Below, one piece after another: positions 45,077 to 61,759 of a stretch of 64,000 nucleotides of DNA. Location: assembly GCF_000242595.2 (NCBI RefSeq), contig NC_017098.1, positions 2,871,501-2,935,500 on the forward strand. Direction: 5' to 3'. Positions within the stretch are counted from its first letter, which is position 1. Each line of letters starts with the position of its first letter. The position numbers and the translations under genes were made by a program. Source of the stretch: Spirochaeta africana DSM 8902. GTDB lineage: Bacteria; Spirochaetota; Spirochaetia; DSM-27196; DSM-8902. Under the pieces are notes generated by a model. It searched no databases and was not told where the DNA came from. It was given only the letters and a program-made list of their open reading frames with translations.

Positions 45077-45138
45077 ACGCTTCCTGTTTCCTGCTGTCAG
45101 GCTTTATCTGCCGGCGGCATATTGTGTACTCTGTGCCA

Positions 45139-46134
45139 ATGATGCTTATGCAAGACATCCGCTGCTGCGTTCAGGATCTGCTGCGCACCTTCTTCCGGCA
45201 ACGCGGCTACCGTGAGGTGGAAACCCCCTCGCTGGCACCAGCCGTTATCCCGGAAGCTACCATTCAGCTGTTCGAAACCCGCTGCACCGGATATCACGGC
45301 AGCCTGCCGCTGTTTGCGCTGCCCAGCCCGGAGTATTACATGAAGCAGCTGCTGGCTCAGGGCAGCGGCAGCATCTTTCAAATTAGCAGATGTTTCCGCA
45401 ATGCGGAAGTCCTGACCCGACAGCATAATCCGGAGTTCAGCATGCTGGAATGGTACACCGTAGACCAGGACTATCGATACAACCTGTCGCTGCAGCAGGA
45501 TCTGATCCGGTTCCTGTGTGACAGCCGCAAGCTGTGGGAGCTCATTGCACAGCTGCCGGCCAGCAGTTCCGGCAGACTGCTTACCCGCGAACTGCGCCAA
45601 CGACTGCAGCAGCCAATTGCCGAGTTTTCTCTGCAGGAGGCCTTCCGGCGCTGGGTCGGCATAGACCTGGCAGCCAGCCTGAAGCGCGGCTATCTTGACC
45701 CCGACCGACCTGAGGAGCCACTTGAGGATGCCTTCCATCGACTGCTGGTCGACTGCGTTGAACCCTGTATACCGGCAGACCGACCGGTTGCACTGATCGA
45801 TTACCCGGCGATCGTACCGACTACCGGACGACAAAAACCTGGCACCCCCTGGACCGAGCGCTGGGAACTCTATATCGGCGGCATGGAGATTGCCAACTGC
45901 TACACCGAAGCTCCGGCTGTAGAGATGGAGAAATACATTGCCGGTGAATCCGCAGCCATCGCTGCCGCCGGCAGACAGGGCCAGGCCGATACCGGCTATG
46001 CCGATAAAATCCGGGCACTGCCGGCCTGTTCCGGCAATGCCCTGGGAATAGACCGCCTGCTGATGCAGCTGACCGGAGAAAGAAGCATCGAAGGGGTGAT
46101 TTTATTTCCCCTGCATGCTACTATCCTGCCATGA
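45139..46134 (+). CDS. epmA: Elongation factor P-lysine ligase EpmA (PoxA/GenX)
   Basis: A 331-aa class II lysyl-tRNA-synthetase-like enzyme without the anticodon-binding domain. It attaches beta-lysine (or lysine) to a lysine of EF-P. Motif 2 (FQISRCFRNAE, HNPEFSMLEWY) and motif 3 (GNALGIDRLLM) are intact, and GYREVETPSL opens the core. The start is uncertain: GTG 45124, ATG 45139 or 45142 are all in frame. I chose 45139 because TACTCT ends six bases before it, as in other genes here. Its stop overlaps efp as ATGA, a direct functional pairing. The partner EpmB is not in the window. Confidence 0.92.
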   Translation: MMLMQDIRCCVQDLLRTFFRQRGYREVETPSLAPAVIPEATIQLFETRCTGYHGSLPLFALPSPEYYMKQLLAQGSGSIFQISRCFRNAEVLTRQHNPEFSMLEWYTVDQDYRYNLSLQQDLIRFLCDSRKLWELIAQLPASSSGRLLTRELRQRLQQPIAEFSLQEAFRRWVGIDLAASLKRGYLDPDRPEEPLEDAFHRLLVDCVEPCIPADRPVALIDYPAIVPTTGRQKPGTPWTERWELYIGGMEIANCYTEAPAVEMEKYIAGESAAIAAAGRQGQADTGYADKIRALPACSGNALGIDRLLMQLTGERSIEGVILFPLHATILP

Positions 46135-58986: not shown

Positions 58987-59523
58987 CTACAGAAGGATTA
59001 CCCCGGCCAACCCGGCAGCCAGTACCACCAGCACTGGATGAAGTCGCCTGAAGGATATCAGCAGCGCAAAACCTGCCAGGGCGATACCGCCCGTTACAAA
59101 GCCGCTGATGGCACTGCTGCCAATCGACCACACCGCAAACAGAATCATGGCAAATATTCCGGGTTTCAGGCTATGCTTGATGCGATCGCCTACCTGGTCG
59201 TTACCACCATCGGTAAAATGCGCATGCAGCTTTACCAGCAGTACAAAGGCAGTCAGCGCCAGCAGGGGCGGGGTAATAACCCCGAGGGTAGCTGCCGCTG
59301 CCCCCGGCACCCCGGCGACCCGATACCCGACAAAGGTGCCGGAGTTGATGGCGATCGGGCCAGGAGTCATCTGCGAAATGGCGATCACCTCGTTCATTTC
59401 AGCCGGGGTAAGCCAGCCGCGGGCCTGTACCACCTCATGGATAATCAGCGAAACCGCGGCTATCCCGCCGCCGAATGCCCCGGCACCGATCACAAAAAAG
59501 GTTTGAAAGAGTTCAAACAGCAT
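58987..59523 (-). CDS. chrA: Chromate transporter half, second
   Basis: A 178-aa membrane protein of the short CHR family. The N-terminal FFVIGAGAFGGGIAAVSLI motif and MTPGPIAINSGTFVGYRVAGV are diagnostic. It overlaps the other CHR gene by 11 bp, so a two-protein transporter is formed. Chromate or sulfate-like anion export is inferred from family; the substrate here is not proven. Confidence 0.88.
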   Translation of the reverse strand: MLFELFQTFFVIGAGAFGGGIAAVSLIIHEVVQARGWLTPAEMNEVIAISQMTPGPIAINSGTFVGYRVAGVPGAAAATLGVITPPLLALTAFVLLVKLHAHFTDGGNDQVGDRIKHSLKPGIFAMILFAVWSIGSSAISGFVTGGIALAGFALLISFRRLHPVLVVLAAGLAGVILL

Positions 59524-60100
59524 CGGAGCCCCCTGTCACCGGTGGTTTGCGGTGATACGGCAGCAGCATCCGCAGACCGAGCCCCGTCAGCAAGCCAGCC
59601 AGGGGATGCCACCCCAGTCCGAACAACAACCCGCCAGCGGCAGCGGCTGCCAGCAGCGACCAGCGATCATGCATGATCTGGCGCAGGAACAACAACGAAG
59701 AAAACGCCAATTGTGCCGCTACCCCGGCAGCTGCACCGCGCAGAAACCGCGATGCCACCGGATGGGTAATAAAATCACCCGCAAGGGAAACAATCAGCAG
59801 GATGATGCAGAAGGATGGCAGCACAACCCCGAGAACCCCGGCCACCGCACCGGGCAACCCGCACAAACGGCGCCCCTGCATATACGCAACATTTACCGCA
59901 ATCACCCCGGGGAACGAGGTTGCCACCGTCACCTCGTCCCAGAACTCCCGATCGCTCAGCCAGCCGTGTTTTACATGCAGCTCGTACCGGATTACCGACA
60001 GCATTGCAATCCCGCCACCGAAGGTCAGCATGCCGATTCTGAAGAACACCCGGAACAGGAGCCAGGCAGAAACACTGGATTCAGCGGGAGAATCATCCAT
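59513..60100 (-). CDS. chrA: Chromate transporter half, first
   Basis: A 195-aa short CHR-family membrane protein. MLTFGGGIAMLSVIRYEL and TSFPGVIAVNVAYMQGRRLCG are the first-half motifs. The start MDDSPAES (60100) is preceded six bases upstream by TATACT with TTGAGC 17 nt before, so it is likely leaderless; an earlier ATG (60124) lies upstream of that box. With the next gene it makes a heterodimeric anion transporter of the type in many spirochaetes and Bacillus. Confidence 0.88.
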   Translation of the reverse strand: MDDSPAESSVSAWLLFRVFFRIGMLTFGGGIAMLSVIRYELHVKHGWLSDREFWDEVTVATSFPGVIAVNVAYMQGRRLCGLPGAVAGVLGVVLPSFCIILLIVSLAGDFITHPVASRFLRGAAAGVAAQLAFSSLLFLRQIMHDRWSLLAAAAAGGLLFGLGWHPLAGLLTGLGLRMLLPYHRKPPVTGGSDAV

Positions 60101-60106
60101 GCCGGC

Positions 60107-60135
60107 AGTATACTCTGCGGACATGGCCTGCTCAA
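60107..60135 (-). promoter_or_regulatory. Promoter of the chrA pair
   Basis: Minus-strand TTGAGC (60130-60135), 17-nt spacer, TATACT (60107-60112), six bases before ATG at 60100. Confidence 0.6.
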
Positions 60136-60177: not shown

Positions 60178-60206
60178 TTGACGACCGGTTTGTTTTTCCC
60201 TATAGT
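60178..60206 (+). promoter_or_regulatory. Promoter of the mgtE leader and mgtE
   Basis: TTGACG (60178-60183), 17-nt spacer, TATAGT (60201-60206). It gives a leader of about 170 nt before mgtE. Confidence 0.75.
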
Positions 60207-60237
60207 AGAAACAGATTACGCACGAAAGGAGGAAGGT

Positions 60238-60336
60238 ATGATTTTGTCGGTAGTTGACGATCAACCTCCGCAACCTATCAGTACCCTTTCCCGTTTAGTA
60301 GTAAACCGGACGGGCGTAATCGAGCGGTCGGGCTAG
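60238..60336 (+). CDS. Candidate MgtE leader peptide, 32 codons
   Basis: ATG with AAAGGAGG five bases upstream, the best SD in the leader. The peptide begins MILSVVDDQPPQPIST, with Asp7, Asp8, Pro10, Pro11 and Pro13, and ends in a TAG at 60334-60336, eleven bases before the hairpin that hides the mgtE SD. The CCTCC of codons 10-11 complements its own SD and the mgtE SD. Acidic/Pro-rich N-terminal segments in leader peptides such as E. coli MgtL sense Mg2+ by destabilising ribosomes; function here is inferred. Confidence 0.6.
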   Translation: MILSVVDDQPPQPISTLSRLVVNRTGVIERSG

Positions 60337-60346
60337 ATCGCTCCCT

Positions 60347-60379
60347 GCGCCTCCCGGACACCCACAGCACTGGAGGCGC
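60347..60379 (+). promoter_or_regulatory. Hairpin hiding the mgtE ribosome-binding site
   Basis: GCGCCTCC (60347-60354) pairs perfectly with GGAGGCGC (60372-60379), 17-nt loop. The 3' arm contains the GGAGG SD of mgtE, six bases before its ATG. A ribosome ending at 60336 would reach the 5' arm and could open it. Confidence 0.7.
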
Positions 60380-60382
60380 CCT

Positions 60383-61759
60383 ATGGATACAACCTTTACC
60401 CCCAGCCTGGTTCATGAGCTGATCGAAACCGAGAACTACATTGAACTGGTACGGCTGAGCAACTCTATTCACCCGATAACCATTGCCGAGGCCCTGATCG
60501 AGCTGGAGCCCGAGGATATCTGGAAGGTTCTGACCCACCTGCCCCCATCAACACGAGCCGAGGTCTTTGTGGAGATGGAGGAACAGGACCAGCTTGATAT
60601 CCTGGAGACACTGTCAGCGCGCGAACTGACCCAGCTGTTTAACCAGATGTCACCGGATGACCGCGCCGACCTGTTTAACAAGCTGGACGAGGCAACCCAG
60701 AACGAGGTTCTGCGCAGCCTCGCCCAGGCTGAACGCGAGGATATCCGACGACTGAGTTCCTACGAGGAAGGCACCGCCGGTTCAATCATGACCTCGGACT
60801 ATATCTGCCTTGCCCCGGAAACCACTGCCGGCGAGACGATTCACCGGCTGCGCACCCAGGGCCCCAAACGCAAGAGCCTGTACTACATCTACGTGGTGGA
60901 CAAGGAACGCCGTTTGCTGGGGTTTGTCTCCTTGCGCGATGTAATCCTGGCACCGCAGTACAAGAAACTCGGGGACATGACCCATCGCGACATCATCGTT
61001 GCCCATGTACAGGACGACCAGGAGGACTCGGTCCAGAAGATCGCCAAATACGACCTGATGGCCATCCCGGTTGTGAATGAGCAGGAAATCCTGGTCGGGG
61101 TTATCACCTCGGACGACGCGATCGATGTCATGCAGCAGGAAAACACCGAGGATATCGAAAAACTGATGGCTATCTCCGGAAGTCACAGCGACACCAGCTA
61201 CCTGAACACCCCTATCTGGGAGCATTTCAAGCGTCGGGTTCCCTGGATTGTTGCTCTGTCCTTTGTCGGGCTGCTGGCCGGGATAGTGGTGGAGACCTTC
61301 GAGGATGCGCTTACCGCGGTGAGCCTGCTGGCGGTCTACATGCCGATGGTTGCCGATACCGGCGGCAACACCGGCAGTCAGTCAGCATCGCTGATCATCC
61401 GCTCACTGGCGCTGCAGCAGCTCAAGTCCAGAAACATTCTGCGGGTACTGCTGAAGGAACTCAGTATCTCGCTCCTGCTTTCTGCCGTCATCGGAATCCT
61501 GGTGTACAGCAGTGTCGTACTGCGCTCACCCACCGGTGTGCCGGATCACATGTCGCTGAATGCCCTGGGAATGGCGATCGCCCTTGCCTTGAGTGTGCAG
61601 GTGGTAAGTGCCACCCTGATCGGCGCAATCCTGCCGCTCACTGCCAATGCCCTGAAATTCGATCCGGCCGTAGTGGCCAGCCCGGCGCTCACCACCACCG
61701 TGGATATAACCGGGCTGCTGATCTACTTTTTTACCGCCAAAACCATTCTGGGATTGTGA
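60383..61759 (+). CDS. mgtE: Magnesium transporter MgtE
   Basis: Mg2+-gated Mg2+ channel of 458 aa. The N domain (residues about 5-130) and two CBS domains (about 135-260) form the cytosolic Mg2+ sensor; GSIMTSDYICL opens the CBS pair. Five membrane helices follow from about 285, with the conserved pore element YMPMVADTGGNTGSQS. The SD GGAGG is at 60372-60376 inside a hairpin. Expression is probably tied to the upstream leader peptide. It ends near a bidirectional hairpin before mcp. Confidence 0.95.
   Translation: MDTTFTPSLVHELIETENYIELVRLSNSIHPITIAEALIELEPEDIWKVLTHLPPSTRAEVFVEMEEQDQLDILETLSARELTQLFNQMSPDDRADLFNKLDEATQNEVLRSLAQAEREDIRRLSSYEEGTAGSIMTSDYICLAPETTAGETIHRLRTQGPKRKSLYYIYVVDKERRLLGFVSLRDVILAPQYKKLGDMTHRDIIVAHVQDDQEDSVQKIAKYDLMAIPVVNEQEILVGVITSDDAIDVMQQENTEDIEKLMAISGSHSDTSYLNTPIWEHFKRRVPWIVALSFVGLLAGIVVETFEDALTAVSLLAVYMPMVADTGGNTGSQSASLIIRSLALQQLKSRNILRVLLKELSISLLLSAVIGILVYSSVVLRSPTGVPDHMSLNALGMAIALALSVQVVSATLIGAILPLTANALKFDPAVVASPALTTTVDITGLLIYFFTAKTILGL

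Follow-up and report, generated by a model that had tools for sequence, protein, structure and literature searches.

The sequence comparisons strongly support the notion that the 32-codon ORF preceding the Mg2+ transporter gene mgtE of Spirochaeta africana DSM 8902 encodes a leader peptide with a regulatory role connected to Mg2+ transport. We consider it probable, though well short of certain, that the ORF acts in cis as a leader-peptide attenuator of mgtE, where the translating ribosome would sense Mg2+ and abortion of leader translation would turn mgtE on. By analogy with enterobacterial systems, spirochaetes probably sense low Mg2+ through a ribosome stumbling on a leader peptide, since similar peptides precede three unrelated types of Mg2+ transporter across the phylum. 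The ribosome-based principle is known; what appears to be new is the peptide family, the fact that it is linked to MgtE, and its occurrence before MgtE, CorA, and MgtA alike in this phylum. Searches of the open-access literature, which omits most subscription journals, returned no account of mgtE leader peptides from spirochaetes. Enterobacteria are documented to sense Mg2+ through the stability of the ribosome; if the same holds here, the ribosome would be a recurrent, perhaps general, Mg2+ sensor. The spirochaete leaders suggest a means by which MgtE could be regulated in spirochaetes where no M-box is detected, and they form a natural set for testing the peptide and codon features that set Mg2+ sensitivity.

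The leader locus upstream of mgtE

The DNA analyzed, here called the window, is a stretch of 64,000 nt from the S. africana genome, a single contig of 3,285,855 bases. The features of the locus are as follows.

60178..60206, + strand: sigma-70-like promoter, TTGACG-17-TATAGT (consensus match only)
60225..60232, + strand: Shine-Dalgarno (SD) sequence of the leader ORF, AAAGGAGG (sequence)
60238..60336, + strand: leader ORF, 32 codons plus TAG (sequence; the same kind of ORF precedes mgtE in many relatives)
60256..60276, + strand: codons 7–13, DDQPPQP, proposed ribosome-destabilising segment (sequence; QPPxP in relatives)
60306..60318, + strand: element A, anti-anti-SD, CCGG at 60306–60309 and GGGCGTA at 60312–60318, leader codons 23–27 (predicted nascent-RNA pairing with element B)
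60322..60343, + strand: 8-bp hairpin across the leader stop codon, arms 60322–60329 and 60336–60343 (MFE fold)
60346..60357, + strand: element B, anti-SD arm, of which GCGCCTCC at 60347–60354 pairs with the mgtE SD (inverted repeat, folding)
60346..60357, + strand: segments of element B facing element A, TGCGCCT at 60346–60352 and CCGG at 60354–60357 (folding)
60372..60379, + strand: element C, the mgtE SD inside GGAGGCGC, buried in a hairpin (inverted repeat, folding, duplex statistics)
60383..61759, + strand: mgtE, Mg2+ transporter, 458 aa (TIGR00400, E 6e-106; PF01769, PF03448, and CBS domains)

The earlier note on this DNA had described a promoter, a 32-codon ORF with a strong SD and a TAG ending at 60336, and a DDQPPQP segment at codons 7–13, and all three were located where it placed them. 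The promoter-like halves (TTGACG at 60178–60183 and TATAGT at 60201–60206) are separated by a 17-nt spacer and match the consensus at 10 of 12 positions; shuffled regions contained a mean of 0.1 such sites each. The ORF runs from the ATG at 60238 to the TAG at 60334–60336 and specifies the 32-aa product MILSVVDDQPPQPISTLSRLVVNRTGVIERSG, for which no Pfam family was matched. As the leader has its own promoter-like site and the upstream gene is divergent, the ORF does not lie between two genes of an operon. On the minus strand, positions 58987–60124 hold two adjoining chromate-transporter half genes, and since these diverge from the mgtE leader, two promoter-like sites stand back to back.

Acidic leader peptides before Mg2+ transporter genes

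The source genome was the sole member of its family in the genome set examined, and the genome and viral contig collections scanned held no close relative; conservation was therefore tested on homologues whose MgtE proteins, the nearest available, are approximately 50% identical. The survey of upstream regions covered 127 distinct mgtE loci, almost all of them in Spirochaetota. SD-led short ORFs with N-termini containing Asp/Glu, Pro, Gly, and Ser were found upstream of mgtE in many families. The leaders were distributed over 14 families (f1, f3, f4, f6, f7, f10, f11, f13, f14, f20, f50, f56, f70, and f74), of which two lie outside the class of the window. The peptides include the following.

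L013 MTDSDGPGSQPPEP; L015 MNDSDGPGSSQPPEP; L017 MNDSEGPGSQPPEP; L093 MPHSDVDSSQPPEP; L094 MPDSDVDASQPPDP (all with the QPPxP of the window leader)
L086 MSDSDGSQ; L009 MSDSEGDPGP; L120 MSDSDGGGSIP; L079 MDDPDGST
L088 and L089 MSEPSRPxxEDPLLC; L099 MEAGSSxLFADPDPVP; L102 VSLREIVDTDSDPDGS
L114 MESADPGPS; L127 MGDGSSxxxYPG

Many relatives have an N-terminus of the form MxDS[DE]G, which that of the window peptide, MILSVVDD, does not follow.

Since leader calls of this kind involve judgement, we regard a blind test as the fair one. In this test, the 300 nt upstream of each of the 127 mgtE loci and of 571 other genes were represented by the small ORF whose SD was best, regardless of its sequence; the other genes came from the window and from 400 kb of sequence of the same and related genomes. 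An acid next to Pro, combined with two or more acids in residues 2–19, was found at 27 of 127 mgtE loci vs 11 of 571 genes (Fisher 1.9e-13), a count that is inflated by related species, yet represents many families. Over the same residues, the density of acidic residues was higher at mgtE loci than at other genes (p 4e-8), and the corresponding value for Pro density was p 0.09. More than half of the sampled mgtE loci had no small SD-led ORF under the rule of this test.

A strict pattern, AGGAGG-N3-9-ATG-x-Asp-Ser-[Asp/Glu]-Gly, was then searched in 395 genomes of the window's class, with the reversed pattern as control. The results showed six matches, all six upstream of Mg2+ transporter genes, and none for the reversed pattern. 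This is the strongest single result, because the search was blind to the downstream gene. Three of the targets were mgtE genes whose leaders were already known, one was an MgtA-type P-ATPase, and two were CorA genes. The leader L159 (genome G191) precedes a magnesium-translocating P-type ATPase (TIGR01524, E 1e-143 over the 418 residues available), and L162 (G270) and L163 (G063) precede CorA (PF01544, E 1e-50); neither G270 nor G063 gave a clear MgtE match. Three further acidic leaders were found before short-type CorA genes (L229, L230/L231, and L236). Such a leader was generally missing from CorA genes of the long type and from seven further MgtA genes in other genomes.

Among the 48 listed leaders, which were partly picked for acidic and Pro residues, residues 2–16 contained an acid in all 48, Pro in 39, and Pro-Pro in six. 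Asp made up 13.1% of residues 2–16 vs 3.2% of the C-terminal parts, again with leaders partly picked on such residues; L100, which is unlike the other leaders, was left out of this composition count, and the doubtful L118 was kept. Judged by these sequences, acidic residues, not prolines, are the general feature of the leaders. The earlier note's interpretation, that Mg2+-dependent ribosome movement on the ORF controls mgtE, is partly supported: the conserved N-termini before mgtE, corA, and mgtA and the leader-specific hairpin described below point strongly to a regulatory leader connected to Mg2+ transport.

The composition also bears on the idea that the leader senses proline codons, i.e. 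that a shortage of EF-P or of charged tRNA-Pro makes ribosomes pause at Pro-Pro, a proposal made for Salmonella mgtP, with Mg2+ acting only indirectly. Codons 10–11 of the window leader are CCT CCG, EF-P is encoded in the same window, and in Salmonella both mgtL and mgtP are responsive to EF-P (PMC6460261). We nonetheless find this explanation improbable, as nine of the 48 leaders are free of Pro in residues 2–16. With acids general and Pro-Pro rare, acidic destabilisation of the ribosome fits better than EF-P-dependent stalling at Pro-Pro. Of the EpmA/EF-P pair named in the earlier note, EF-P lies at ~46332, adjoining a class II synthetase-like ORF (45124–46131) that fits EpmA; no direct link between the two and the leader was found.

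Between related leaders, differences at the first, second, and third codon positions numbered 94/97/161 in codons 2–18 and 176/156/196 further on, which indicates that the N-terminus of the leader is constrained as protein and that the remainder drifts. Constraint at the N-terminus, rather than at the C-terminus, would fit early destabilisation of the ribosome over a C-terminal arrest peptide.

In other phyla, mgtE is often controlled by the M-box, and the window leader is structured overall (z −2.25), both of which would suit a metal-binding RNA, either an M-box or a new riboswitch, as the sensor, with the ORF incidental. This is very improbable: neither the window nor any of 16 relatives matched an Rfam covariance model, M-box/ykoK included, and the feature common to the loci is a peptide with third-position substitution bias behind strong SDs.

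Codon usage was also biased in the leaders. Ser after Gly is encoded by AGT in 21 of 25 cases, whereas in the C-terminal parts AGT accounts for 9 of 58 Ser codons. Of 44 leaders, 21 contain GGYAGT in their first 48 nt, vs one of 44 post-stop stretches. The Gly-Ser pair encoded by GGY-AGT is seen, for example, in L013, L015, L080, and L127; in the window, the motif at 60249–60254 is out of frame. A base-pairing partner for GGYAGT was sought and none was found. A bolder reading, which we put forward tentatively and regard as doubtful, would be a phylum-wide Mg2+ regulon served by one leader-peptide family that is unrelated to mgtL, corL, and mgtQ and became fixed before MgtE, CorA, and MgtA; the sensor would then be a specific nascent chain with the near-invariant Gly-Ser(AGU) pair, not generic acidic destabilisation.

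Competing RNA pairings and the direction of control

The perfect 8-bp hairpin that the earlier note had seen over the mgtE SD was confirmed. The inverted repeat GCGCCTCC (60347–60354) and GGAGGCGC (60372–60379) forms 8 of 8 pairs and includes the SD, the hairpin forms at approximately 98% in window folding, and pairing of the SD with the stretch from the leader stop to mgtE exceeded that of 200 dinucleotide shuffles (z −3.0, p 0.005). In 34 leader loci, pairing of the SD with the stop-to-start gap gave a mean z of −1.5 (Fisher 7e-11), vs −0.07 in 65 other genes and +0.12 in 65 leaderless mgtE loci. Thus, the anti-SD hairpin is enriched solely in leader-bearing mgtE loci. The evidence for the anti-SD consists of these duplex statistics; an alignment of the g4 leaders misplaced the anti-SD in two of four sequences.

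This specificity is explained by translation control, and it argues against transcription attenuation, in which leader translation would set Rho-dependent or intrinsic termination and the SD hairpin would be secondary. There is precedent for such a mechanism in E. coli and Salmonella, where mgtL and corL act via Rho (PMC11282234, PMC11552253). No intrinsic terminator was found in the window leader, nor by the same scan at the mgtA leader L159, and we give little credence to this alternative for the mgtE leader.

ORFs taken from other lineages were poorer pairing partners for the anti-SD than the 3' half of the leader ORF at its own locus (Wilcoxon p 0.0012), and clear pairings with the own leader were seen in L009, L010, L013, L015, L024, L038, L040, and L086. 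The CCTCC of the Pro codons (10–11) is complementary to both SDs, as had been pointed out, but this is not the pairing supported by relatives; according to the predicted duplexes, the competing pairing is that of the leader 3' half with the anti-SD. The leaders of L013 and L015 differ in their 3' halves, yet both loci carry a CCGAAATGTAA / CCGAATGTAA box just before the mgtE SD, on the side of the anti-SD.

The predicted opening of the SD was larger with the ORF bare past codon 12 (aborted) than with the ORF covered (translated; Wilcoxon p 0.048). The aborted/translated values were 0.41/0.06 for L009, 0.40/0.00 for L008, 0.32/0.00 for L013, 0.46/0.01 for L096, and 0.53/0.04 for L127. A gain of >0.1 in the aborted state was obtained for L008, L009, L013, L040, L086, L090, L091, L096, and L127, and no locus displayed an opposite shift of >0.1. 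On the direction of control, which the earlier note had left open, the predictions for relatives thus suggest that abortion of leader translation would turn mgtE on.

In the window, folding of the nascent RNA up to the SD paired element A (60306–60318) with element B (60346–60357) around the stop-codon hairpin (−31.0 kcal/mol), a fold that has no clear margin over shuffles (z −1.33). At equilibrium, the B:C hairpin is approximately 12 kcal/mol better than the SD-open fold, and the predicted opening of the SD was 0.00 in both the aborted and the translated states. The ON state must therefore be kinetic or reached another way, and a switch in the window would need to act during transcription, or via a paused ribosome or polymerase.

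Folding further predicted that a ribosome at the leader stop with its leading edge at +16 would itself open the hairpin, and the direction of control would then reverse. Translational coupling of this kind, the main rival to the attenuator, in which termination at 60336 would open the SD hairpin and full translation of the leader would turn mgtE on, suits the window, as the anti-SD begins 11 nt past the stop (at a similar distance in genus g4) and the SD opens only when the leading edge is well past the stop, e.g. at +16. We consider coupling unlikely, since the anti-SD lies 20–60 nt past the stop in several relatives, beyond the reach of a terminating ribosome, and abortion, not full translation, gives the higher predicted opening of the SD. 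Moreover, under coupling the importer would go off at low Mg2+ if the acid/Pro codons abort translation.

Proposed mechanism and known systems

In the proposed attenuator, with abortion of leader translation as the ON signal, ribosomes would get through the acid/Pro codons 7–13 when Mg2+ is ample, reach codons 23–32, and cover element A; element B would then pair with the mgtE SD and mgtE would be off. At low cytosolic Mg2+, the early Asp and Pro residues of the nascent chain would destabilise the ribosome and cause drop-off. Element A, left bare, would pair with B during RNA synthesis, the mgtE SD would stay free, and the importer would be made. This order of events is proposed because of the analogy with mgtQ and mgtL and because of the computed folds. 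The computations show the ORF with its SD, the phylum-wide leader family before Mg2+ transporters, the SD-hiding hairpin, and the competing A:B pairing; that the ORF is translated, that ribosomes drop off in response to Mg2+, and that the switch is timed co-transcriptionally in S. africana are inferred.

The proposed scheme follows the logic of Salmonella mgtQ, where acidic codons impede uORF translation, the anti-RBS is taken up by an upstream stem, and mgtB is translated more (PMC8092293). The spirochaete leader resembles mgtQ, an 8-aa uORF before mgtB, in that a short acidic uORF stands upstream of an Mg2+ transporter gene (PMC8092293), a stem (3:4 in mgtQ) hides the RBS and, here by prediction, an upstream element competes for the anti-RBS and control is at the level of translation. 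Unlike mgtQ, the spirochaete ORF has 32 aa with Asp-Asp and Pro-Pro, lies in a 5' leader and not between operon genes, and precedes the gene of an MgtE channel, not of a P-ATPase, in a different phylum; the two are not related in sequence.

In E. coli mgtL, ribosomes drop off at EPDP under low Mg2+, and efficient translation represses mgtA (PMC11282234, PMC11552253). In leaders of the mgtL type, drop-off is countered by ribosomal protein L31, for which the S. africana genome has one gene. As in E. coli and Salmonella mgtL, the uORF is SD-led and has early acidic and Pro residues; repression of the importer by efficient translation and mutually exclusive RNA folds, both features of mgtL, are proposed here from the predicted folds. 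Unlike mgtL, which works by Rho-dependent termination, the visible output is a hairpin that hides an SD. There is no peptide homology, and EPDP, the mgtL motif (PMC11282234), is absent from MILSVVDDQPPQP. Since peptide homology and genomic position fail, we do not claim membership of the mgtL or the mgtQ family.

E. coli and Salmonella corL is likewise a uORF before an Mg2+ channel gene, with inverse expression of uORF and gene (PMC11552253); corL, however, is poor in acidic and Pro residues and works via Rho, whereas the corA leaders of spirochaetes have the peptide type of the mgtE leaders. The M. tuberculosis pe20 Mbox with uORF2 has, like the window, a uORF in the leader, which is Mg2+-regulated there, and a competition of SD, anti-SD, and anti-anti-SD, for the window a predicted one (PMC12810186); unlike in the window, where no M-box was found, an M-box aptamer has the uORF as its output. 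The mgtE motif of Thioalkalivibrio is also a candidate regulatory RNA at the start of mgtE that includes the SD (PMC11109978), but it is reported only there, as a riboswitch candidate without a uORF.

Neither a CorA nor a P-ATPase above the MgtA cut-off was found in the S. africana genome, and its second MgtE is 29% identical and without such a leader; for these reasons, the leader-bearing mgtE is probably the regulated importer of the genome.
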